Origin: Pirellulales bacterium
Lineage (GTDB): Bacteria > Planctomycetota > Planctomycetia > Pirellulales > JAICIG01
Direction of reading: 5' to 3'
Assembly: GCA_035533075.1 (NCBI GenBank)
Contig: DATLUO010000009.1
Span: 1-33,042 of the forward strand
Length of the DNA stretch: 33,042 nucleotides
Shown here in pieces: positions 5,953-24,327 of the stretch (the stretch's first letter is position 1; every line of letters begins with the position of its first letter). Both the position numbers and the translations under genes were made by a program. The notes beneath the pieces were generated by a model. It did no database searches. It was not told the origin of the DNA and saw nothing but the letters and a program-made list of their open reading frames with translations.

Positions 5953-6099
5953 GGGGTAGCGGAATGGAATAAACGAACCGCGAGAAGGTCGCCGAGCGAA
6001 GAGAGAAGCCGGGAGGAAGCCTGGATCCGCGCCAGCGGCCGCGACCAGTGGCCTTACGGGCCCCGTGACTCCAACGTGCCGGATGAATCTGTACAACGC

Positions 6100-6151
6100 A
6101 CGGATGAAACACAGATCAAACTCGGATTTGCGTTATCCGTGTTTCATCCGT
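6100..6151. repeat. Inverted repeat, 13-bp perfect arms
   Basis: ACGGATGAAACAC at 6100-6112 is the exact reverse complement of 6139-6151. Pairing continues inward for four more bases with one mismatch, leaving an unpaired centre. It stands in the non-coding gap after smpB, just before a restriction-modification gene scrap. ATCCGTGTTTCATCCGTG-type words are dispersed intergenic repeats in environmental genomes as far as I recall, so a scattered repeat is more likely than a terminator. Confidence 0.5.
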
Positions 6152-6223
6152 GAGAATCAGCGGCTGATAACCCTTGGCGAAACCGCCGTCGGCCGCACGC
6201 TGAGACCCAAGGTCCGCTGCAAC

Positions 6224-6471
6224 CTTCATCCGCGCAATCAGGGCACCGGCATCCCCGACGGCGGGCTCGACACCGCCGACCAGTTTCAGCGGCCATCGGC
6301 CGGCGAGCCGAAGCCCGGCCAACTCCCAGCCGCGGCGCCATCGAGGTCAAGGGTACGAAGCCCGACGAGATGGCCGTCGCCGACAGCCCGCAAGTGGCCG
6401 GATACCTGAAGACCTACGGCATCGTGCTGGTCACCAACCTGCGCAGCTTCGTGATCGTCGATCGGAATTGA
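6224..6471 (+). pseudogene. Frameshifted N-terminal scrap of a DNA methyltransferase / type ISP-like restriction enzyme
   Basis: One frame reads HPRNQGTGIPDGGL then DQFQR and PKPGQLPA up to about 6330. The continuation is in another frame from 6331: RGAIEVKGTKPDE, VAGYLKTYGIVLVTNLRSFVIV, ending at TGA 6469-6471. Both parts match the order of an N-terminal segment I recognise in large Eco57I/type ISP-like adenine methylase-restriction proteins (GxGIPDGG, then RGxIEVKGT, then QVxxYxxxYxxVLVTNxRxFxxV). Those proteins are around 1000 residues long; only about 80 residues are left here. A C-terminal scrap of the same kind lies at 7602-7667, beyond the VapC gene. Confidence 0.6.
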
Positions 6472-6570
6472 CTTTCTCCCGCAGTTGGCCGAAGATTCTT
6501 TTGGAGGCTCGGTTGAGGAGCCGCCTTCGGGTTGCCGTGTTTTTATGTCCTGTTTCCTGCTCCTGGGTGA

Positions 6571-7134
6571 ATGTCCCGCATGATGAAGACGTTTTCAGCC
6601 ATTTTTGAGAACGGCGTCTTCCGGCCCGTCGAGCCCGTCGATTTCCCTGAGCACTGCCAGGTGCGTGTCGATGTGCGATCGGTTGAACCGACGGGCGAAA
6701 GCAGCCGTGATGAGGTTTCTGCCAACACGCCGATGCCCCAGCGAGTGCGCCTCGTCGGCAGGCTGGCGATGATTCCTGCCGGCACGCATGCCTTCGACCT
6801 CGTTCTGGATGACGGGCGGCAGGCCGGGGTCGAATTGGTCGCAGGCGACACGGCGGTCGTCTCCCGGCTGATCGGCGAGCGAGTACTTGTCCTCGGCACG
6901 GCGATGTACGGACCTTCTGGCAACTTGCTGAGGATCGACGCCGACGAGGTCAACCTTTCGGGAGACGACGGCCGCTTCTTCTCGGCGGCCCCGCGACTGG
7001 CCCGCGAACGCTTGGATGTTGATGAGGTTCTGCATGAGCAGCGTCACAAGCGTGGTGTGTCGGCCATCCTTGGCCAATGGCCGGGCGACGAGAGCGATGA
7101 CGAGATCGCGGCGGCACTGAAGGAACTGAGTTGA
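6571..7134 (+). CDS. DUF104 (AF2212-like) antitoxin, long form
   Basis: The N-terminus MKTFSAIFENGVFRPVEPVD (from the ATG at 6583) is the signature of AF2212-like antitoxins, usually 60-75 residues. This one has 187 residues: after the N-terminal module there is an added beta-rich domain of about 100 residues (VRLVGRLAMIPAGTHAFDLVLDD, ERVLVLGTAMYGPSG), and then an acidic tail (WPGDESDDEIAAALKELS) of the kind that occupies a PIN toxin's active-site groove. Starts at 6571, 6580 and 6583 are all possible; 6571 is given as the longest. The stop TGA shares one base with the ATG of the vapC gene. It probably represses its own promoter, as such operons usually do. Confidence 0.75.
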   Translation: MSRMMKTFSAIFENGVFRPVEPVDFPEHCQVRVDVRSVEPTGESSRDEVSANTPMPQRVRLVGRLAMIPAGTHAFDLVLDDGRQAGVELVAGDTAVVSRLIGERVLVLGTAMYGPSGNLLRIDADEVNLSGDDGRFFSAAPRLARERLDVDEVLHEQRHKRGVSAILGQWPGDESDDEIAAALKELS

Positions 7135-14099: not shown

Positions 14100-14118
14100 G
14101 CGACTCGTGGAGATGTTG

Positions 14119-17100
14119 ATGCGATTTCGCCCGTCCAAAGCGGTCCCGCCGCGCCCTCGCCGCCGACCGCGGAACGCCCTGTCAGGCCCCAACGGCCCGG
14201 CGCTGGCCGCGCGGCCGCTCCGTTATGAACCGCTGGAAGAGCGAGAACTATTGGCCTGGAACGTGGCGCCCATCGTCATTGCGCCCGTGGAAGGCGCGCC
14301 CGTCGCCGAACAAGCCCTGGCCGACATCATCGTCGATCCCGGCAGCGGTCTGGGACCGGCCGACTTTGCCGCCACCATCAACTGGGGCGACGGCACCACC
14401 AACACCGCCGACGTCGTCAGCACGTCGCAAAACACGACGTTCGCGGTGCTGGGCACGCACACCTACAGCGAAGAAGGGCCGGAATCGATCCAGATCACCG
14501 TCACCCACGGCACCGATACGCCAAAAATAGGCACCGATGCGGTCACGGTCAGCGACCCCGCCGTGAACGTGACCGGCGGAGCCACGTTCACCGCCGCCGA
14601 AGCAGCCACGCCCTCGCAACAGGTCATGGCCACGTTCAGCGATCCCGGCAGCAACGAGGACCCGCAAAGCGATTACTCGGCCAAAATCGCCTGGGGCGAC
14701 GGCAGCATCACGGCCGGCACCATCGCCTTCAATCCGCTGGCCGACGATTTTTCGGTGACGGGCGGCGGCGACCACGTGTATGCCGAAGACGGTTCCTACA
14801 CCCTGACCGTCACCGTCTCGCACGATAGCGCGCCGGCGGCCAGCGCCACCAGCAGCGCGATTGTCTCCGATCCTTCGGTGGTCGGCACGGGCGGCTATAA
14901 TTACACCGGCATTGAAAACAACATGAACGTTGCCTTCAACGAAACGGTGGCCACCTTCACCGATCCGGCTGGACCGGAGCCTCTCTCGAGTTATTCGGCG
15001 ACGATCGTCTGGGGCACCGATCCGATCACCAATCAGCCGATCACCTCGGCCGGCACGATCACGCTTGGTAAGGGCAATGTGGACGGCACGATCGTACCGG
15101 TCTTCACCGTCAGCGGGTCTCACGCCTTCACCGAAGAGACGCCCACGATCACGCTGAATGGCGTCACCACCAATCTCGCTCCCATCAGCGTCGTTTTGAA
15201 TCACGGCGCGAGTTTGCCCGTCACGGTGGCCAGCAGCGCCAGCATTTCCGACGCCCCCTTGCAACTAACCGCTTCGGCGTCGTTCAGCGCGGCGGAAGGG
15301 GTCCCGCTGGTGAACGTGCCCATGGCCACGTTTACCGACTTGGGCGGCATCGAAGCCCTTGAGGACTACACCGCCGAAATCGCGTGGGGCGACGGCATCA
15401 CCACGCCGGGCAGCGTGTCGCTGACCAACGGCGAGTTCACGGTGACGGGCACGCACAACTACCGCGTGGGCGGTTTGCAGACGGCCACCATCAACCTCTA
15501 CCACGACACCGCTCCCGAAACGGCGGTGCTGACGGCGATCACGGTCAGCGACCCGCCGGTCGTTCCCACCGGCAACTACGCCTTCGCCGCCACCGAGGCC
15601 CTTCAATCGACGCCTCAGACGGTCGCCACGTTCGTCGATCCCGGCGGCGTGGCGCCGCTGAACGAATACTCGGCCACCATCGACTGGGGCGACGGCAGCG
15701 CCACATCGGCCGGCACCCTTTCCGTGAATCCGATCTCGGACGTGTTCACCGTCAGCGGCCAGCACACCTATGCCGAAGAGGGCTCGTACCCCATCGCGGT
15801 GACCATCAGCCACGAAGCGGCCCCCACCGTCGCCGTCACCAGCACGGCGGCCGTGACCGATCAGCCGGTGGTGGCCAACGGCGGCTATGCGTATTCGGCC
15901 GTCGAGTTCCGTCAGTTCGGTCCGCAAACGCTGGCCGTGTTCAGCGATCCGGCCGGCACGGAGTCGCCGGGCGACTATGCGGCCACCATCAACTGGGGCG
16001 ACGGCACCACGTCACCCGGCAGCATCGTGGCGAAGGCCGACGGCAGCGGCTTCAGCGTGCAGGGAAGCCACGTTTTCACTCAGGCCGGCAGCTTCGAAGT
16101 CGGCGTAACCATCCATCACGACACCGCTGCCGACGTGACCGTCCAAGACACGCTGACGGTGAGCTTGCCTCCGGTCACGCTCAGCACCCAGCCGTTGATC
16201 TGGAAGGAATGGACGCCCCTGGAGGCGCCTGACAACGCCTTGGCCAGCATCTCGTTCGTCGACAGCAACACGCAGGTGATGATCAATTGGGGCGACGGCA
16301 CCAGCGGCCCGGGCACGGTCACGCAATTCGTCAGCGGCGGCGCGGGCGCCGCGCTCGGCACGCACACCTGGACCGAAACCGGTTCCTACACCGTCACCGT
16401 CACGGTGACCGACGGCGCGTCGCGGGCCACGGCGACGCTGCCCGTGACCGTGCTGAAACCGGTCTTGCCGGTTCCCAACCCCGCGACCGCTTCGGCCAAC
16501 GACTATTACGTGGCCGAAATGTACGAAGACATCTTGCACCGGTTTGTCGACTCGCAGGGCCTGCAGTTCTGGTCGGGCTTGCTCGACGCCGGGGCTCCTC
16601 TGTCGGTCGTCTCGACGGCGCTACTTTCTTCCGACGAGTACCTGACGAATTTCGTCATTCGTCCGGCCTACGAAAAGTACCTGGGCCGCGACGCGGATCC
16701 CGGCGGCATCACCTATTGGCTCGCTCAGATGCACGCCGGGCTGACCGATGAAGGTCTGGCCGCTTCCCTGGCGTCGTCCGCCGAATTCTATATCAACGCC
16801 GGCAACACCAATGTCGGCTACGTCGACGCGCTCTATCGCCTCGTTCTCGGCCGCCCGGCCGACGGCGGCGGCGAAAGCTATTGGGTCGGGCGGCTCGCCG
16901 CGGGCGAGAGCGCGTTCGATGTGGCGATTGGTTTCGCCACGAGCTCCGAAGACCGCACGACGCAAATCGACCACACCTATCAGGCGCTTCTCGGCCGCAA
17001 TCCCTCGTTGGGCGAGCTCGATCAATGGCTGGTCGACTTCCAGTCGGGCATGACGACCAACGAGTCGCTCATCGCCAGTATCGCCGCCACCGACGAATAC

Positions 17101-17124
17101 TACTCCCGCGCCGTCAACGAATAG
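14119..17124 (+). CDS. Large surface protein with seven WGDG (PKD/Ig-like) repeats and DUF4214 C-terminus
   Basis: It encodes 1001 residues from ATG 14119 (TGGAG six bases upstream); GTG 14107 or ATG 14113 would add a few. The basic, Pro-rich N-terminus ends in YEPLEERELLAWN, a LEPR-XLL-type motif of planctomycete extracellular proteins. Seven repeats of about 100 residues follow, each with an [AV]xIxWGDG core (tgg codons near 14393, 14692, 15009, 15385, 15685, 15993, 16288); the third is degenerate (WGTD). The C-terminal 200 residues hold DUF4214 modules (EKYLGRDADPGGITYW, YRLVLGRPADGGGESYW, YQALLGRNPSLGELDQW). WGDG repeats usually build adhesive or structural stalks. DUF4214 is common at the ends of secreted proteins. 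A cell-surface role is likely but unproven. Confidence 0.82.
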   Translation: MRFRPSKAVPPRPRRRPRNALSGPNGPALAARPLRYEPLEERELLAWNVAPIVIAPVEGAPVAEQALADIIVDPGSGLGPADFAATINWGDGTTNTADVVSTSQNTTFAVLGTHTYSEEGPESIQITVTHGTDTPKIGTDAVTVSDPAVNVTGGATFTAAEAATPSQQVMATFSDPGSNEDPQSDYSAKIAWGDGSITAGTIAFNPLADDFSVTGGGDHVYAEDGSYTLTVTVSHDSAPAASATSSAIVSDPSVVGTGGYNYTGIENNMNVAFNETVATFTDPAGPEPLSSYSATIVWGTDPITNQPITSAGTITLGKGNVDGTIVPVFTVSGSHAFTEETPTITLNGVTTNLAPISVVLNHGASLPVTVASSASISDAPLQLTASASFSAAEGVPLVNVPMATFTDLGGIEALEDYTAEIAWGDGITTPGSVSLTNGEFTVTGTHNYRVGGLQTATINLYHDTAPETAVLTAITVSDPPVVPTGNYAFAATEALQSTPQTVATFVDPGGVAPLNEYSATIDWGDGSATSAGTLSVNPISDVFTVSGQHTYAEEGSYPIAVTISHEAAPTVAVTSTAAVTDQPVVANGGYAYSAVEFRQFGPQTLAVFSDPAGTESPGDYAATINWGDGTTSPGSIVAKADGSGFSVQGSHVFTQAGSFEVGVTIHHDTAADVTVQDTLTVSLPPVTLSTQPLIWKEWTPLEAPDNALASISFVDSNTQVMINWGDGTSGPGTVTQFVSGGAGAALGTHTWTETGSYTVTVTVTDGASRATATLPVTVLKPVLPVPNPATASANDYYVAEMYEDILHRFVDSQGLQFWSGLLDAGAPLSVVSTALLSSDEYLTNFVIRPAYEKYLGRDADPGGITYWLAQMHAGLTDEGLAASLASSAEFYINAGNTNVGYVDALYRLVLGRPADGGGESYWVGRLAAGESAFDVAIGFATSSEDRTTQIDHTYQALLGRNPSLGELDQWLVDFQSGMTTNESLIASIAATDEYYSRAVNE

Positions 17125-17198: not shown

Positions 17199-17804
17199 AT
17201 GCTCGCCAATCCCCTCGAACTGCTGCTGCAAGCCAAACAAGGCTCCGACGTTGCGCGCGGCGAGCTGCTGGAAAGCTACCGTGCCTACTTGGAGCTGCTG
17301 GCCAGGGTCGAGCTGGGGCGAAGGCTGCAAACCAAGGTCGATGCCGCCGACCTCGTTCAGGAGACGTTCTTGGAGGCGCACCGCAATTTCGCCCTCTTCC
17401 GCGGCCAGAGCGAACCGGAATTCGCCGCCTGGCTGCGCGAGATCCTTTCGGGCAGAATCTGCAACCTCGTGCGGCATTACCTGGGCACGCAAGGCCGCGA
17501 CCTGCGGCGAGAGCGGGCCTGGAACGTCAACCTGGATGAATCGTCGCGGGCCATCGACCGCGGCTTTTTAGCCCTGCAAAGCACGCCCAGCCAGCACGTG
17601 GCCGCGCGCGAGCAAGGCGTGCTGCTGGCCCAGGCGCTGTCGCGGCTGCCGCCCGATTACCGCGAGGTGGTCGTATTGCGGCACTTCGAAGAACTGACGT
17701 TTCCGGAAGTCGCCCGTCGCATGGATCGCACCGTCGATAGCGTGCAAAAGCTTTGGGTGCGCGCCCTGGCCAGCTTGAAGCAGACCCTGCCGGAGGTTGT
17801 ATGA
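17199..17804 (+). CDS. ECF-type RNA polymerase sigma factor (planctomycete-specific group)
   Basis: It encodes 201 residues. Region 2 is seen in DAADLVQETFLEAHRNFALFRG, with WLREILSGRICNLVRHYLG after it. Region 4 is seen in LSRLPPDYREVVVLRHFEELTFPEVARRMDRTVDSVQKLWVRAL, a helix-turn-helix for the -35 element. The linker between them (about 100-140) is longer than in E. coli RpoE. I place it in the planctomycete-specific sigma-70 subfamily from memory. No anti-sigma factor is adjacent; instead the stop overlaps the start of a membrane Ser/Thr kinase by ATGA, so phosphorylation is the likely control. Confidence 0.88.
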   Translation: MLANPLELLLQAKQGSDVARGELLESYRAYLELLARVELGRRLQTKVDAADLVQETFLEAHRNFALFRGQSEPEFAAWLREILSGRICNLVRHYLGTQGRDLRRERAWNVNLDESSRAIDRGFLALQSTPSQHVAAREQGVLLAQALSRLPPDYREVVVLRHFEELTFPEVARRMDRTVDSVQKLWVRALASLKQTLPEVV

Positions 17805-20296
17805 GTGAACTGGAGAATAGCCACACCGAAGTCGATCCACCCAGCTCGCCCGCAAACGCAACCGGCGACGTACTGGACGATCCGCGCGTGCTGGCCGTCG
17901 TGCAAGAATATATGGCCGAGCTCGATCTCGGCCGCGTGCCCGATCGGCGCGGCTATGTCAGTCGCTATCCCGAGTTGGCGGTCGCCGTCGGGCAGTGTCT
18001 CGACGGCCTGGAGCTGGTGCGCGCGGCGGGGCCACGCTCTTCGTCGGCGGGCGCGGACCGCGCGGCCGCCAACGAGCCGGCGCCGCGGGCCTTGGGCGAC
18101 TTTCAGATCATTCGCGAGCTGGGCCGCGGCGGTATGGGAGTGGTCTACGAGGCGGTGCAGCTTTCGCTCGGCCGCCGCGTGGCATTGAAGGTGTTGCCGT
18201 TCGCCGCCACGTTCGACGCCCGCCAATTGCAGCGGTTCAAGAACGAAGCCCAGGCCGCGGCCCTCTTGCACCACACCAATATCGTGCCGATTTATGCCGT
18301 GGGCTGCGAGCGGGGCGTTCACTTCTACGCCATGCAGCTCATCGAAGGGCACTCGATGGCGCTTTTGATCCGCCAGATGCGCGAGCAGGCCGGACTGGCT
18401 TCGGCCGAGCCCGAAGTCAAATCGGCCAGCCCCAAATCAGCCAGCCCCAAATCAGCCAGTTGTGCAGCCGGAGTCTCGGCGACTGGTCCTTATCTGGGCG
18501 GCGTTGTGCCCTTGGCGACAAAGAACGAATATCTCCGCTCGACCGCCGGCGCCTCGCTCAGCATCACCGCCCGCGCCGCGCGCGGCGGCGACCATTATCA
18601 GAAGCTCGCGCGGCTGATGCTGCAGGCGGCCGATGCCCTGGAGCACGCCCACCAGGTCGGCATCGTGCATCGCGACATCAAGCCCGCGAACCTGATGATC
18701 GACCCTTCCGGCACGCTCTGGGTGGCCGACTTCGGGCTGGCCCTGTTTCAGGCCGAGGCCAGCTTGACGCGCACCGGCGACCTGGTGGGCACGTTCCGCT
18801 ATATGAGTCCCGAGCAGGCCAGCGGCCAACGCACGGCCATCGACCACCGCACCGACCTCTATTCGCTGGGGGCGACCTTCTACGAGCTGCTCACGCTGGA
18901 GCCGGTGTTCTCAGGCGAAACCAGGCACGAGCTGCTCTACCAGATTCTGCACGGCGAGCCGAAAGCGCCGCGTCAGATCAACCGGGCCATACCGGTCGAG
19001 CTGGAAACGATCGTGCTCAAGGCGCTGCGCAAGACGCCCGGCGAGCGCTATGCGTCGGCCGCCGAGTTCGCCGAAGACCTGCGGCGGTTTCTCGATCACC
19101 GCCCCATCCTGGCGCGCCGCCCGACCGTGGTCGACCGCCTGCGCAAATGGTCTCGCCGGCATCCGTCCATCGTCGTCGCCGGCGTGCTGCTGTTGGCCGG
19201 CGGACTGGTGGCGCTTTCGGTCAGCACATGGATGATTGCCCGTGAACAGCAGAAGACGGCCGACAGCCTGGCGGCGCTGTCGGTCAGCAATCGGATGATC
19301 GCCCATGAACAACAGAAAACGGCCGACGCGCTGGGCCGCGAGAAACAACGGGCGAACGAGGCGGAAGACTTGTTCCGTCAGGCGCGGCAGGCCGTCGACG
19401 TGCTGGTGGAGGTGAGCGAGGACGAACTGGCCGACAAGTTCTCAATGGTGCAGACCCGCAAGCGGATGTTGCAAACCGCCTTGGGATTCTATCAGGACTT
19501 TATCGAAGAGCGGCGCGGCGACGAAGCATCGCAGGCCGATCTGACGACCGTCGAACAGCGCGTGAAGGGCATTTTGCGCGAGTTGGAGTTATTGCGCCGC
19601 AACACGCAAACCACGCTCTTGCGCAAGCCGATTGTGATCCAAGAACTGCGATTGGACGAGCAGCAGGAGCAACGTACCGCCGAGTTGTTGCACACCTGGG
19701 ACGAAGAGGTGAGTGATTTGCGATCGGAGCTGGAAGCGCTCGACGAAGAGGGCCGGCGTCAACGTTTCATCGCGCTGGCCGAAGGGCGCGAACGTTCGGT
19801 CGAACGGGTGCTCAGCGCCGAGCAGCGCGAGCGGTTGCGGCAGCTCGCGTTGCAGGCGCAAGGTTTGTGGGCCTTCAAAGAACCGGAGGTGGTGGCCGCG
19901 CTGGAGCTGACGCGAGGGCAACGCCTGGCGATTCGCAAGATCGAACGCGAGCTGTTCGAGCGCGAACCGCCGCATGATCACAGACACGGTCCGCAGGACC
20001 ATGGGCCGCCAGACCGCGGGCCACGCGACCATGGACCTCCGGAGCATGGGCTGCAGGATCACGGTCTGCACGATCGTGGGGCGCCGGACAGAGGATCCCA
20101 TCCCCGCCGGCCGAAGCTGCGCGATTTCCAACAGGCCCTGGCGAAGGTCCTGGCGCTGCTGAGTACCGAACAGATCGAGCGTTGGCACGAGCTTTCGGGC
20201 ACGCCGCTGGAAGGTTTGTTCGACATGCCTTTTGGCGAACCATCCGGCCCAACGCCTCCCGAGGATTGTACACCGGGGCAAAAACCGACCGACTAA
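17801..20296 (+). CDS. Membrane Ser/Thr protein kinase with Spy/CpxP-like tail and His-rich repeat
   Basis: It encodes 831 residues. The kinase domain (about 100-430) is complete: GRGGMG loop 108-113, VALK with K130, HRDIKPAN with D292, DFG 310-312 and SPE 336-338. A 70-residue insertion (about 198-265) contains KSASP repeats. One membrane helix (about 457-478) is followed by a duplicated 21-residue juxtamembrane segment (471-491 and 492-512) and a long helical extracytoplasmic part. The end (about 665-800) has LSAEQRERL, LTRGQRLAI and LSTEQIERW, like the LTxxQ helices of Spy/CpxP/ZraP periplasmic sensors. Seven pentapeptides of xxDHG/DRG type (731-765) interrupt it. It probably senses envelope state or metal and signals to the overlapping sigma factor. 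Confidence 0.88.
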   Translation: MSELENSHTEVDPPSSPANATGDVLDDPRVLAVVQEYMAELDLGRVPDRRGYVSRYPELAVAVGQCLDGLELVRAAGPRSSSAGADRAAANEPAPRALGDFQIIRELGRGGMGVVYEAVQLSLGRRVALKVLPFAATFDARQLQRFKNEAQAAALLHHTNIVPIYAVGCERGVHFYAMQLIEGHSMALLIRQMREQAGLASAEPEVKSASPKSASPKSASCAAGVSATGPYLGGVVPLATKNEYLRSTAGASLSITARAARGGDHYQKLARLMLQAADALEHAHQVGIVHRDIKPANLMIDPSGTLWVADFGLALFQAEASLTRTGDLVGTFRYMSPEQASGQRTAIDHRTDLYSLGATFYELLTLEPVFSGETRHELLYQILHGEPKAPRQINRAIPVELETIVLKALRKTPGERYASAAEFAEDLRRFLDHRPILARRPTVVDRLRKWSRRHPSIVVAGVLLLAGGLVALSVSTWMIAREQQKTADSLAALSVSNRMIAHEQQKTADALGREKQRANEAEDLFRQARQAVDVLVEVSEDELADKFSMVQTRKRMLQTALGFYQDFIEERRGDEASQADLTTVEQRVKGILRELELLRRNTQTTLLRKPIVIQELRLDEQQEQRTAELLHTWDEEVSDLRSELEALDEEGRRQRFIALAEGRERSVERVLSAEQRERLRQLALQAQGLWAFKEPEVVAALELTRGQRLAIRKIERELFEREPPHDHRHGPQDHGPPDRGPRDHGPPEHGLQDHGLHDRGAPDRGSHPRRPKLRDFQQALAKVLALLSTEQIERWHELSGTPLEGLFDMPFGEPSGPTPPEDCTPGQKPTD
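18419..18463 (+). repeat. Coding 15-bp tandem repeat (KSASP x3) in the kinase
   Basis: Three 15-base units encode KSASP KSASP KSASC within an insertion of the kinase domain between strand 5 and the HRD loop. The units are nearly identical at DNA level, pointing to recent slippage expansion. Confidence 0.8.
19211..19336 (+). repeat. 63-bp tandem duplication in the kinase juxtamembrane region
   Basis: Two adjacent 63-base units encode ALSVSTWMIAREQQKTADSL-A and ALSVSNRMIAHEQQKTADAL-G. The first overlaps the end of the membrane helix and the second extends the following helix by exactly 21 residues, three heptads, so coiled-coil register is kept. Confidence 0.85.
19991..20095 (+). repeat. Coding 15-bp repeat, seven DHG/DRG pentapeptides in the kinase tail
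   Basis: Seven units of five codons encode PQDHG, PPDRG, PRDHG, PPEHG, LQDHG, LHDRG and APDRG. They lie inside the Spy/CpxP-like region of the kinase and are flanked by HDHRH and GSH. The His and Asp spacing could bind divalent metal. Confidence 0.85.
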
Positions 20297-20383
20297 CGCA
20301 CGGAGGATGGCCTTGCCAGGCCGTCCAGCATACGACGTGGCGGCCTAGGAAGGCCATGCTCCCCATCCAGCGAGAAACGACCC
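20297..20383. repeat. Two small hairpins after the kinase gene
   Basis: GGATGGCCTT-GCC-AGGCCGTCC (about 20305-20326) folds with one wobble pair. AGCAT...ATGCT around GGCCT-AGG-AAGGCC (about 20328-20358) forms a second hairpin. The words GGCCTTGCCAGGCC and GGCCTAGGAAGGCC are alike, so this looks like a REP-type dispersed element. It could also attenuate transcription into the downstream genes. Confidence 0.45.
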
Positions 20384-20641
20384 ATGTATTTCGGCGAACC
20401 ACCCGCGGGCATCAATCTCACGGCCTACGACCTCGATCTGATCTTCGCGGTGCCCAAGCCGCTGCGACTGCGGACAATTCACATCGCCGCGCTGGGCGTG
20501 GCTGCGTTGTCGCTGGCGGGCGTCATCGAATGGCCGCGGTGCTGGCAGCTCATGGCGCTGGGCGACGCGGCGGCAGCGAGCGCGCTGTTCGCGCTGGCGG
20601 CGGGCCGGGAGTGGTTCTTGCGCGGCGGACCGGCCTTTTAG
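20384..20641 (+). CDS. 85-residue membrane protein of the sigma-kinase cluster
   Basis: It starts at ATG 20384 with no strong Shine-Dalgarno. A polar start (MYFGEPPAGINLTAYDLDLIFAVPKP) precedes two hydrophobic helices at about residues 32-50 (IHIAALGVAALSLAGVIEW) and 55-75 (LMALGDAAAASALFALAAG). No family is recognised. It lies between the kinase and the DUF4175 gene on the same strand, so it may be a membrane partner of either. Whether it depends on the kinase promoter is uncertain because of the hairpins in front of it. Confidence 0.6.
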   Translation: MYFGEPPAGINLTAYDLDLIFAVPKPLRLRTIHIAALGVAALSLAGVIEWPRCWQLMALGDAAAASALFALAAGREWFLRGGPAF

Positions 20642-20667
20642 CCTTCTCCGCGGAATGCCCGGCCGCG

Positions 20668-20673
20668 TACAAT
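20668..20673 (+). promoter_or_regulatory. Possible -10 element for the DUF4175 gene
   Basis: CGTACAATG at 20666-20674 includes TACAAT, 5 of 6 to consensus, 82 bases before the DUF4175 ATG. The same CGTACAATG word occurs upstream of the apt microprotein at 26303-26311. No clear -35 was found. Confidence 0.3.
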
Positions 20674-20754
20674 GAGGTCTGTTTGGCCGTCGATCTTGCC
20701 GCGGCAAGGCAATCCGTGCCACAATGACGGCACCGAAGGGCAACCTGGTTCAAT

Positions 20755-23700
20755 ATGCCTCATGTTCTCGAGCAAAAGATGGCTGCGGTGCGGCACCGGG
20801 TGCGGCGGTCGCTAATGCTCGATGCCGCGGGCAGGCTGGTCGCGGTGGTTGTCGCCGCCGGTCTCGCCCTGGGCATGCTCGATTACGTCGTGCGTTACGA
20901 AGACCGCGGCCTGCGGCTGATGTCGTCCTTGGCGCTCGGGCTGGCGATGGGCTGGGCTTGCTATCGGTTCTTGTGGCCGGCGTTGCGCGCCCGATTGACC
21001 GACGTGGACCTGGCCCTGCAACTCGAAGCGCGGCTGCCGATCTTGCGAGACCGGCTGGCCAGCGCCATGCGGTTCCTGCGCGAACGCGAAGACGACGCCC
21101 TGGCCGGCTCGGCGGCCCTGCGGCGCAGCGTGATCGCCGAAGCCACCGCCGAAATCGACCGCCTGAAGCTCGAAGAGACGGTCGAGCCGCGACTGGCCCG
21201 CCGATCGCTGTGGCTGGCCGGCGCATCGCTCGTCGCGGTGCTCGCGCTGGCGTTTTTCAACGTGTCCGCGACCGGCATCGCCGTCGCGCGGCTGGCGGCA
21301 CCGTGGGGAAGCACGCAGTGGCCCAAGCAGAATCATTTGGAGTTTGTCAACCCGGTGCGACGACTGGCGGCCGGGCAAACGTTCGAGGTCGAGCTTAAGG
21401 ATGCCCAAGGGGCCAGGCTGCCCGACGCAGTGTCGATTCAGTTTCGCTTTCCTGAGTCGCAGTCGTCGCCCACGGAAACCAGCGAGCCGATGCGGCGGGT
21501 GAACGACGCCATGTTGGCCCGCAAGGAAAACGTCACACGCTCGTTTTCCTATCGCGCCGTGGGCGGCGACGATTACTCGATGGAGTGGACCGACCTGCAA
21601 GTCGTCGAGCCGCCGCAGATCGAAGACTTGTCGGTGAGGCTTCATTATCCGGAATACACCGGCTGGCCGGCCGAGACGGCCGAACCGCACCTGCGCGCTT
21701 TGGTGGGGACGCTGGTCGAGCTGTCGGGCCGCACCAGCAAACCGGCCAGCGCCGTGAAAGTGCATGTCAACGACGATGAGGCGATTCCGGCCAGGCTGAC
21801 CGACGACGGCCGACGCTTTCTCGTGCCCGGCGACGCGGCGTCGCAGTTCAAGGTCGAACGTTCGGGGGCCTATTGGATCGAGCTGGTCGACCGGGATGGG
21901 TTCTCCAGCGGCGAACAGACCCGCTACGAGATTCGCGCAGTGGAAGATTTCACGCCCACGGTCACCATCGAGCAGCCGCAGGCCAACGCCTTTGTGACGC
22001 CCGTCGCGAACGTCGCCCTGCGCGTCGCGGCCAAAGACGATCTGGCACTGGCGCAGGTGGCTTTGCGGTTCTCACGTAGCGACCGGTCGCAAGAACAAGA
22101 GACGGAGATCGTCGTCTACCAAGCGCCGCAGACTCCGCAACCGCGGACGGACGCGGCCACGAAGCTGGAAAGCGGCGAATCTCGCGAAGTTTCTCACGAG
22201 CTCGACCTGGCGGCATTGGGGCTCAAGCCGGGCGCGCAGATCACGCTCTACGCCACGGCCACGGATTATCATCCGCATCGCGGGCAGAGTCAGCCCGTCC
22301 GGTTGACGGTCATCACCGCCGATGAGCTGCGAGAGCGGCTGGCCGAGCGGCAGAACTTTATCGTCGGCGAGCTGGGCCGGCTGCTGAAGCTCCAGCGCGA
22401 TGCGCGGTCGCCGCTCGCCGACGCCGACATCCAATTGCGGCGGGTCGGCCGCCTGCAAAGGCACGACATCGACCACCTGCAAAGCGCCGAATTGTTGCAG
22501 CGGCAGGTCGAGCGCGGACTCACCAGCCCCAGCGAAGGCGTGACGAGCCAGATTTCCGGACTGCTCGCCGATCTGGAGCAGAACAACGTCGACAGCCCGG
22601 ACGTCGAGCGGCAGATGCGATCGCTGCTCGACGAGATCGACCGCTTGGGCCGCGACGAGCTGCCGGCCATCGGCGGCGAGCTGACGGCGGCGATCAAGGC
22701 GGCGCAGGTCGAGCTGCCGTCCGGCGCGACCAAGGAAGCCGCGGCACCGCCGGCGGGCGCCAGTGCGGTCGCGGCGCCGTTGACATCCGCGGCCGGGCAC
22801 CAGGATGAGGTGATCGCCACGCTCGAGCGGCTTACCGCCTCGCTGGCCGAGTGGGACAACTTCCGCCGCTTCCACCGCGAGATCGCCACGCTCCGCCGAC
22901 AGCAGGAAGAGCTGAATCGCGATTCGGCCGACTCCGGGCGGCAGACGCTGGCCAGAGACTTCAACCGGCTCACGCCGCAGGAGCAGGCCGATTTGGGGAA
23001 GCTGGCCGCGCGGCAACTCGATCTTGCCCGGCAGTTCGACAAGATTCAGGAGCGCATGCAGCGGACGGCCGAAGAGGCCGCGACGGGCGATCCGCTGTCG
23101 GCCGGCAGCATCGCCGACGCTTTGGCGCACGCGCGCCAGCGCGGCGTGTCGCAGGCCTTGCACGAGTCGGGCAGGCAGATCGGCAAGAACCAATTCGGCC
23201 AGGCCACGCAGGCCCAGCGCCAGGCGGCCGACGACTTGCAAGAGATGCTCGACATTCTGGCCAACCGCCGCGAGCATGAGTTGGGCCGGCTGGTGAAGAA
23301 GCTCCGCGAAGCCCAAGAGCAGCTCGATCAACTTCGCGAACGGCAACAGGGCTTGCAAAAGAAATGGCGGGCGGCGGCCGATGAGGCCGGCGATGCCGTT
23401 CGGCGACGCGAGCTCGAGCGGCTCACGCGCCAGCAGCGCGACGCCGCCGCCGACACTCAGCGTCTGGCTCGCTCATTACAGCGATTGCAGGCCGAACGGG
23501 CAGGCCAACAAGCGACGCAGGGCGGGGCGAACATGGAGCGTGCCGCGGAACAGGCCGATCAAGGTCAGGCCGACCAGGGTCAGGCCGACCAGGGGCAGGC
23601 CGGGGCCGCGGCCGAAGCCGCGGCCGAGGCCGAGCGCGATCTCGAGCAGGCACAACAAGAGCTGGCCAAACGGCTGGCGCAGGCCGAAGCCGATCTGGCC

Positions 23701-24327
23701 CAGGAACAGATGGCGCGGCTCGAAGACCATCTCAAGCCCCTGGCCGACGCGCAGCGGGAACTGCTGGAAGAAACCCATCATTACGCCGAGGTCGAGCAGT
23801 CGCAAGGCGAATTGACTCGCGCCCAGGCGATCAGCGTCGGCGACTTGGGAAAGCAGCAACATGAGATGTCGCAAGAGGCGGCGGAGTTGGCGGCCAAGAT
23901 GGCGGCGACTCCCGTCTTTCGGTTGGCCTTGCAGCAGGCGGACCGGCAGATGCAACGCGCCGCCCTGCTGCTCGACGGGCAGAAGACCGGCCAGCCGACG
24001 CAACAGGCGGAACAACGCGCCATCGACCTGTTGACGCACGCGGTAGAGGCCCTCAAACCGGCCGCCGGCGGGCCTCAAGAACAAGAAAGCGAATCTCAGC
24101 CGGGCGAGCAAAATGCCAACGCCGCCGACCCCAGTCAGATGCTGGCCGAGCTGAAGCTGCTAAAATGGATGCAGGACGACGTGAACCAGCGCACCGAGGC
24201 GCTCGACAAGGCCCATCGCGGCGCCGCCGAGTTGCCGCCCGACGCGCAGCGTGAATACGAGGAGCTGAGCGAGCAGCAAGGCGTGATCGCCGAGCTGACG
24301 TTGAAGTTGGCGAACGAAGAAGGCTGA
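20755..24327 (+). CDS. DUF4175-type large membrane protein with long coiled coil
   Basis: It encodes 1190 residues. Membrane helices lie at about 24-46, 55-76 and 150-170, followed by a beta-rich extracytoplasmic part (about 190-520) with Ig-like strands (EFVNPVRRLAAGQTFEVELKDAQG, VRLHYPEYTGWPAET). From about 525 to the end it is almost all charged, Gln-rich coiled coil (LRERQQGLQKKWRAAADEAGD). This layout matches the DUF4175 family as I know it. A repeat ADQGQ x3 stands at about 934-948. The function of the family is unknown. The position after the sigma factor and kinase suggests an envelope role, and the coiled coil could span the periplasm or act as a scaffold. Confidence 0.75.
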   Translation: MPHVLEQKMAAVRHRVRRSLMLDAAGRLVAVVVAAGLALGMLDYVVRYEDRGLRLMSSLALGLAMGWACYRFLWPALRARLTDVDLALQLEARLPILRDRLASAMRFLREREDDALAGSAALRRSVIAEATAEIDRLKLEETVEPRLARRSLWLAGASLVAVLALAFFNVSATGIAVARLAAPWGSTQWPKQNHLEFVNPVRRLAAGQTFEVELKDAQGARLPDAVSIQFRFPESQSSPTETSEPMRRVNDAMLARKENVTRSFSYRAVGGDDYSMEWTDLQVVEPPQIEDLSVRLHYPEYTGWPAETAEPHLRALVGTLVELSGRTSKPASAVKVHVNDDEAIPARLTDDGRRFLVPGDAASQFKVERSGAYWIELVDRDGFSSGEQTRYEIRAVEDFTPTVTIEQPQANAFVTPVANVALRVAAKDDLALAQVALRFSRSDRSQEQETEIVVYQAPQTPQPRTDAATKLESGESREVSHELDLAALGLKPGAQITLYATATDYHPHRGQSQPVRLTVITADELRERLAERQNFIVGELGRLLKLQRDARSPLADADIQLRRVGRLQRHDIDHLQSAELLQRQVERGLTSPSEGVTSQISGLLADLEQNNVDSPDVERQMRSLLDEIDRLGRDELPAIGGELTAAIKAAQVELPSGATKEAAAPPAGASAVAAPLTSAAGHQDEVIATLERLTASLAEWDNFRRFHREIATLRRQQEELNRDSADSGRQTLARDFNRLTPQEQADLGKLAARQLDLARQFDKIQERMQRTAEEAATGDPLSAGSIADALAHARQRGVSQALHESGRQIGKNQFGQATQAQRQAADDLQEMLDILANRREHELGRLVKKLREAQEQLDQLRERQQGLQKKWRAAADEAGDAVRRRELERLTRQQRDAAADTQRLARSLQRLQAERAGQQATQGGANMERAAEQADQGQADQGQADQGQAGAAAEAAAEAERDLEQAQQELAKRLAQAEADLAQEQMARLEDHLKPLADAQRELLEETHHYAEVEQSQGELTRAQAISVGDLGKQQHEMSQEAAELAAKMAATPVFRLALQQADRQMQRAALLLDGQKTGQPTQQAEQRAIDLLTHAVEALKPAAGGPQEQESESQPGEQNANAADPSQMLAELKLLKWMQDDVNQRTEALDKAHRGAAELPPDAQREYEELSEQQGVIAELTLKLANEEG
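23554..23598 (+). repeat. Coding 15-bp tandem repeat (ADQGQ x3)
   Basis: Three 15-base units encode ADQGQ, in frame, within the DUF4175 coiled coil. They differ only at a few third positions. An alanine/glutamate-rich stretch (AAAEAAAEAERD) follows directly. Confidence 0.8.

Follow-up and report, generated by a model that had tools for sequence, protein, structure and literature searches.

A conserved ECF sigma factor–Ser/Thr kinase gene pair with a Spy/CpxP-related kinase tail in a Pirellulales genome

Results

Genes at the locus

The window, i.e. the whole stretch of DNA that was analysed, comprises 33,042 nt of a draft genome of a Pirellulales bacterium. As an earlier note on this DNA had described, four open reading frames follow one another on its forward strand. 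The first (17199-17804, +) encodes an ECF sigma factor of 201 aa that matches TIGR02984 (Sig-70_plancto1) with 219.5 bits and thus exceeds the NCBI curated cut-off of 183.75. The second (17801-20296, +) encodes a Hanks-type Ser/Thr kinase of 831 aa. Its PF00069 (Pkinase) score of 133.6 bits lies over the cut-off, and the catalytic motifs HRDIKPAN and DFG are seen in the sequence. The two genes overlap, as had also been noticed before, by an ATGA at 17801-17804 that is common to the sigma factor stop and the kinase start. An anti-sigma gene was not seen among the neighbouring ORFs tested by family searches.

An ORF of 85 codons with two hydrophobic stretches (20384-20641, +) begins 87 nt after the kinase gene. 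It is followed, after a further 113 nt, by a gene for a DUF4175-like membrane/coiled-coil protein of 1190 aa (20755-24327, +). The gap between the kinase gene and the 85-aa ORF is largely filled by a palindrome, a diverged copy of a 62-bp repeat (20301-20362, no strand assigned).

On the upstream side, a PKD/DUF4214 surface-type protein is encoded at 14107-17124 (+), ending about 75 nt before the sigma factor gene. Upstream of a related sigma factor gene, positions 2200-2814 of locus L131 give a 35% match to the C-terminal part of this protein.

Conservation of the sigma factor and its kinase

A sigma factor alignment covering 80 loci in named planctomycete records was used to characterize the pair; the nearest named relative is a Pirellulales bin. 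The kinase gene lies close downstream of the sigma factor gene on the same strand in 74 of the 76 loci whose sequence extends 500 nt or more beyond the latter, usually overlapping it or within tens of bases. The same tail is present in 50 of the kinases at related loci. In a sister genus (genome G001), the pair is found on contig C35, with 79% identity of the sigma factor and 72% identity of the kinase domain to the window. At least three further sigma factor–kinase pairs are present among the TIGR02984-like genes of the 8.5-Mb source draft genome. The two genes, which had been assumed to belong together, are a conserved pair by this comparison of gene order and sequence.

At related locus L163, the kinase frame stops about 220 nt in, after a sigma factor gene at 6001-6600, and VTC and DUF4956 genes come next. 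The kinase of this locus is either truncated or frameshifted.

Region 2.2 of the sigma factor reads KVDAADLVQE, with both aspartates retained (DAAD). In the alignment of related planctomycete loci, D48 is found in 78/80 and D51 in 80/80 sequences, i.e. the acidic DxxD is intact. The linker contains S115, S116 and T129-P130-S131, which are the kind of Ser/Thr sites that a search of the region 2-4 linker had been proposed to look for. In the same alignment, position 129 is Ser or Thr in 79/80, P130 is present in 80/80 and S131 in 78/80 sequences; S115/S116 are frequent among the relatives.

Two sigma factors of the source genome (L025 and L036) apparently have a kinase nearby and are devoid of the linker motif. 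A serine motif in the linker as a mark of every kinase-paired sigma factor was therefore dropped; it marks a sigma factor subgroup and not kinase pairing. Membership in ECF43 was likewise considered and rejected. Sigma factors of that group lack the acidic region 2.2 motif and are phosphorylated on a threonine there, according to excerpts of a review (PMC8999054) and to PMC13147305, whereas the sigma factor of the window keeps the DxxD.

Kinase architecture and tail

The kinase domain spans approximately residues 100-430 and is followed by one transmembrane helix (approximately residues 456-478) and a helical tail. This layout would place the kinase domain in the cytosol and, across the single membrane helix, the tail outside the cytoplasmic membrane. 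The earlier note had likened the tail to periplasmic Spy/CpxP-type sensors, and profile comparisons bear this out for the part encoded at 19610-20293 (+). PF07813 is matched by 22 of 49 homologous kinase tails (best E-value 1.1e-5), with one homologous tail passing the cut-off at 31.3 bits, and a kinase-tail profile finds E. coli Spy structures with E-values of 1.8e-5 and 5.1e-5. A Pfam search with the window's own tail alone gave no match. At the level of sequence profiles, the tail is related to the Spy/CpxP (LTXXQ) proteins. Members of this family (PF07813) are periplasmic proteins, whereas the related tail of the window is fused to a transmembrane kinase.

Structure prediction was carried out for the whole tail (pLDDT 85.8) and for the LTXXQ part alone (pLDDT 82.2). 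Fold matches of the former are generic helical bundles, and a fold search with the latter gave no useful match. The best match, of model residues 68-147 to an MIT-like bundle (73 residues, rmsd 1.6), has a Z-score of 10.1, which falls under the level counted meaningful for helical bundles. This modelled likeness to the MIT domain possibly reflects only a common helical arrangement. Since neither tail model has a convincing fold match, the relation to Spy rests on the profiles described above.

Genes downstream of the pair at related loci

Sequence of 1.2 kb or more beyond the kinase gene is available for 62 of the 80 loci. On the strand of the kinase gene, VTC, DUF4956 and/or CotH genes come next at 14 of these 62 loci, a count that is uncorrected for kinship among phylogenetically non-independent loci. 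Examples are L154, L157, L181, L183, L184, L190, L193, L202, L203 and L205. The family assignments of these genes were confirmed, and queries for VTC, DUF4956 and CotH had no match in 444 kb of planctomycete sequence used as a control. Further matches of the kinase-tail profile are the N-terminal parts of several of the nearby CotH proteins and, at locus L133, a 292-aa protein beside the pair.

A gene group of cotH, polyphosphate polymerase and DUF4956 has been reported beside pel loci (PMC7112168). The same families are found after the pair at some related loci but not at the window. No literature on CotH together with sigma factors was found. VTC is absent from both genomes of the window's family, so this result bears on the relatives and not on the window itself.

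Genomic context of the DUF4175-like gene and the 85-aa ORF

The DUF4175 assignment of the fourth protein holds in part. Relatives are present in 48 of 57 genomes of the order, but the PF13779 score of 21.8 bits stays below the gathering cut-off of 27.3, and the protein is counted as a distant relative only. For the 85-aa ORF, no relatives were found in 56 other genomes, and family searches yielded nothing of note. Its codon-position GC content (0.69/0.52/0.85) is compatible with coding.

Relatives of either gene are found beside the sigma factor–kinase pair at none of the 80 loci, and the window ORFs other than the pair had no matches at the nearest sigma factor–kinase loci. Conversely, the sigma factor, the kinase and the 85-aa ORF are absent from all 20 regions around DUF4175 homologues (L095-L114). 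Across the order, these regions have recurrent neighbours of their own. Upstream, a MoxR ATPase, a DUF58 protein, a BatA-like protein and a vWFA protein recur (names read from the sequences), with the vWFA family present in 17 of the 20 regions; three further families recur downstream. The MoxR-DUF58-BatA-vWFA cluster is absent around the DUF4175-like gene of the window. In the sister genus, the DUF4175-like gene is located on contig C179, apart from the pair and with other neighbours. In each of the two family genomes, the top-ranking vWFA homologues lie on other contigs than the DUF4175-like gene, so the cluster seems to be dispersed in this family, as far as gene positions indicate.

The survey of neighbourhoods had been proposed by the earlier note itself, which regarded its circuit as refuted if kinase and DUF4175 genes were not neighbours in relatives. 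This is the case, as they are neighbours at 0/80 loci and in 0/20 regions, and on separate contigs in the sister genus. Together with the two gaps, this speaks against one signalling unit of four genes.

A palindromic repeat at the junction

The 62-bp inverted repeat, with the consensus arm GGAGGATGGCCTTCCTAGGCCGTCC, is found at 40 or more places in the source genome (including L231-L250); this number is a lower bound, as 40 of 138 candidates were scored. The repeat is REP-like in form. At the junction, the palindrome folds far better than shuffled sequences (z -4.1). Judged from its sequence and position, the repeat could mark a boundary of rearrangement or the end of a transcript. In the source genome, the sequence would also allow one transcript for all four genes.

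Discussion

The data are best explained by a two-gene module of an ECF sigma factor and a Ser/Thr kinase in which the kinase senses through its tail and activates the sigma factor, with the 85-aa ORF and the DUF4175-like gene being unrelated to it. We assign this reading a probability of about 0.7. The tail would sense a condition of the envelope and switch the kinase on. The kinase would then phosphorylate the sigma factor, or activate it otherwise, and the regulon would be transcribed. That the kinase is the likely controller had already been proposed, and published precedent for ECF–kinase pairs backs it. Such pairs are a published kind, with ECF43, ECF59, ECF61, ECF62 and ECF217 as examples in excerpts of the review (PMC8999054). 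The claim that no system of such composition has been described thus holds for the four-gene set, but not for the sigma factor–kinase pair.

The pair resembles ECF59, ECF61, ECF62 and ECF217 in that a sigma factor gene is located beside a Ser/Thr kinase gene with no adjacent anti-sigma gene seen, and in its planctomycete hosts (PMC8999054, excerpts). An LTXXQ tail and VTC/DUF4956/CotH neighbours are features of the window's group that these excerpts do not mention for the four groups. The ECF43 pairs EcfP-PknT of Vibrio parahaemolyticus and EcfK-PknS of Xanthomonas citri likewise combine a membrane Hanks-type kinase with an adjacent ECF sigma factor gene, and direct phosphorylation is the model there. 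By analogy, the sigma factor of the window may be phosphorylated by its kinase. As its acidic residues in region 2.2 are kept, the EcfP-type switch would not apply and the linker would offer likelier phosphosites, namely S115/S116 and [S/T]129-P-S131 in place of the region 2.2 threonine of EcfP/EcfK. Linker phosphosites have been reported for EcfK as well (PMC13147305), which makes phosphorylation of the linker the better guess here. The conserved linker serines could instead have a structural role. No published experiments on a planctomycete sigma factor–kinase pair were found.

The strongest alternative leaves the pair intact and changes the target: the substrates of the kinase would be other proteins or an unlinked anti-sigma factor, with the sigma factor itself left unphosphorylated. 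The intact acidic residues in region 2.2 should let the sigma factor bind polymerase in its unphosphorylated state, and groups other than ECF43 may work differently according to the excerpts of the review (PMC8999054). The near-invariance of the linker Ser/Thr within the sigma factor group and the linker sites of EcfK both argue the other way, and we regard this alternative as rather unlikely.

The two-gene reading also has to account for the DUF4175-like gene. In the window's family, this gene would have been split from the MoxR/vWFA cluster and, in the source genome, have landed by chance downstream of the pair. A less probable variant, to which we give little credence, is that the gene, after leaving its usual cluster, became a target of the sigma factor or was co-transcribed with the pair in this one lineage. 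The gene order of the source genome would agree with such a link, as would the missing cluster around the gene in both family genomes examined; a strong hairpin separates the kinase gene from the downstream genes, however, and the gene order in the sister genus is a different one. An envelope-stress circuit of all four genes, in which the kinase, sensing through its tail jointly with the DUF4175 coiled coil and with the 85-aa protein as an accessory, activates the sigma factor, draws on the common strand, the short gaps and the apparent membrane or envelope link of all members, but is very improbable given that its adjacency is kept at no other surveyed locus or region, that DUF4175 has its own conserved neighbourhood, that the 85-aa ORF is an orphan and that a multi-copy palindrome occupies the junction. 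The four-part stress circuit is not supported, and the DUF4175-like gene and the 85-aa ORF are considered chance neighbours of the pair.

For the relatives, the recurring LTXXQ, CotH, VTC and DUF4956 neighbours suggest a candidate set of targets or partners. A wider proposal, doubtful in our judgement, is that in a planctomycete subgroup the Spy/CpxP-type kinase tail and the same domain on secreted CotH proteins belong to one envelope-sensing system, which would be tied to VTC/DUF4956 at some loci and would have a sigma factor phosphorylated in the linker and not in region 2.2. The source genome would then carry a reduced form of this system.

ECF–kinase pairs are common in planctomycetes. With the false four-part circuit removed, a real two-gene module remains at this locus. 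The combination of an intact DxxD and conserved linker serines makes it simple to test whether this group is switched by phosphorylation of the linker.
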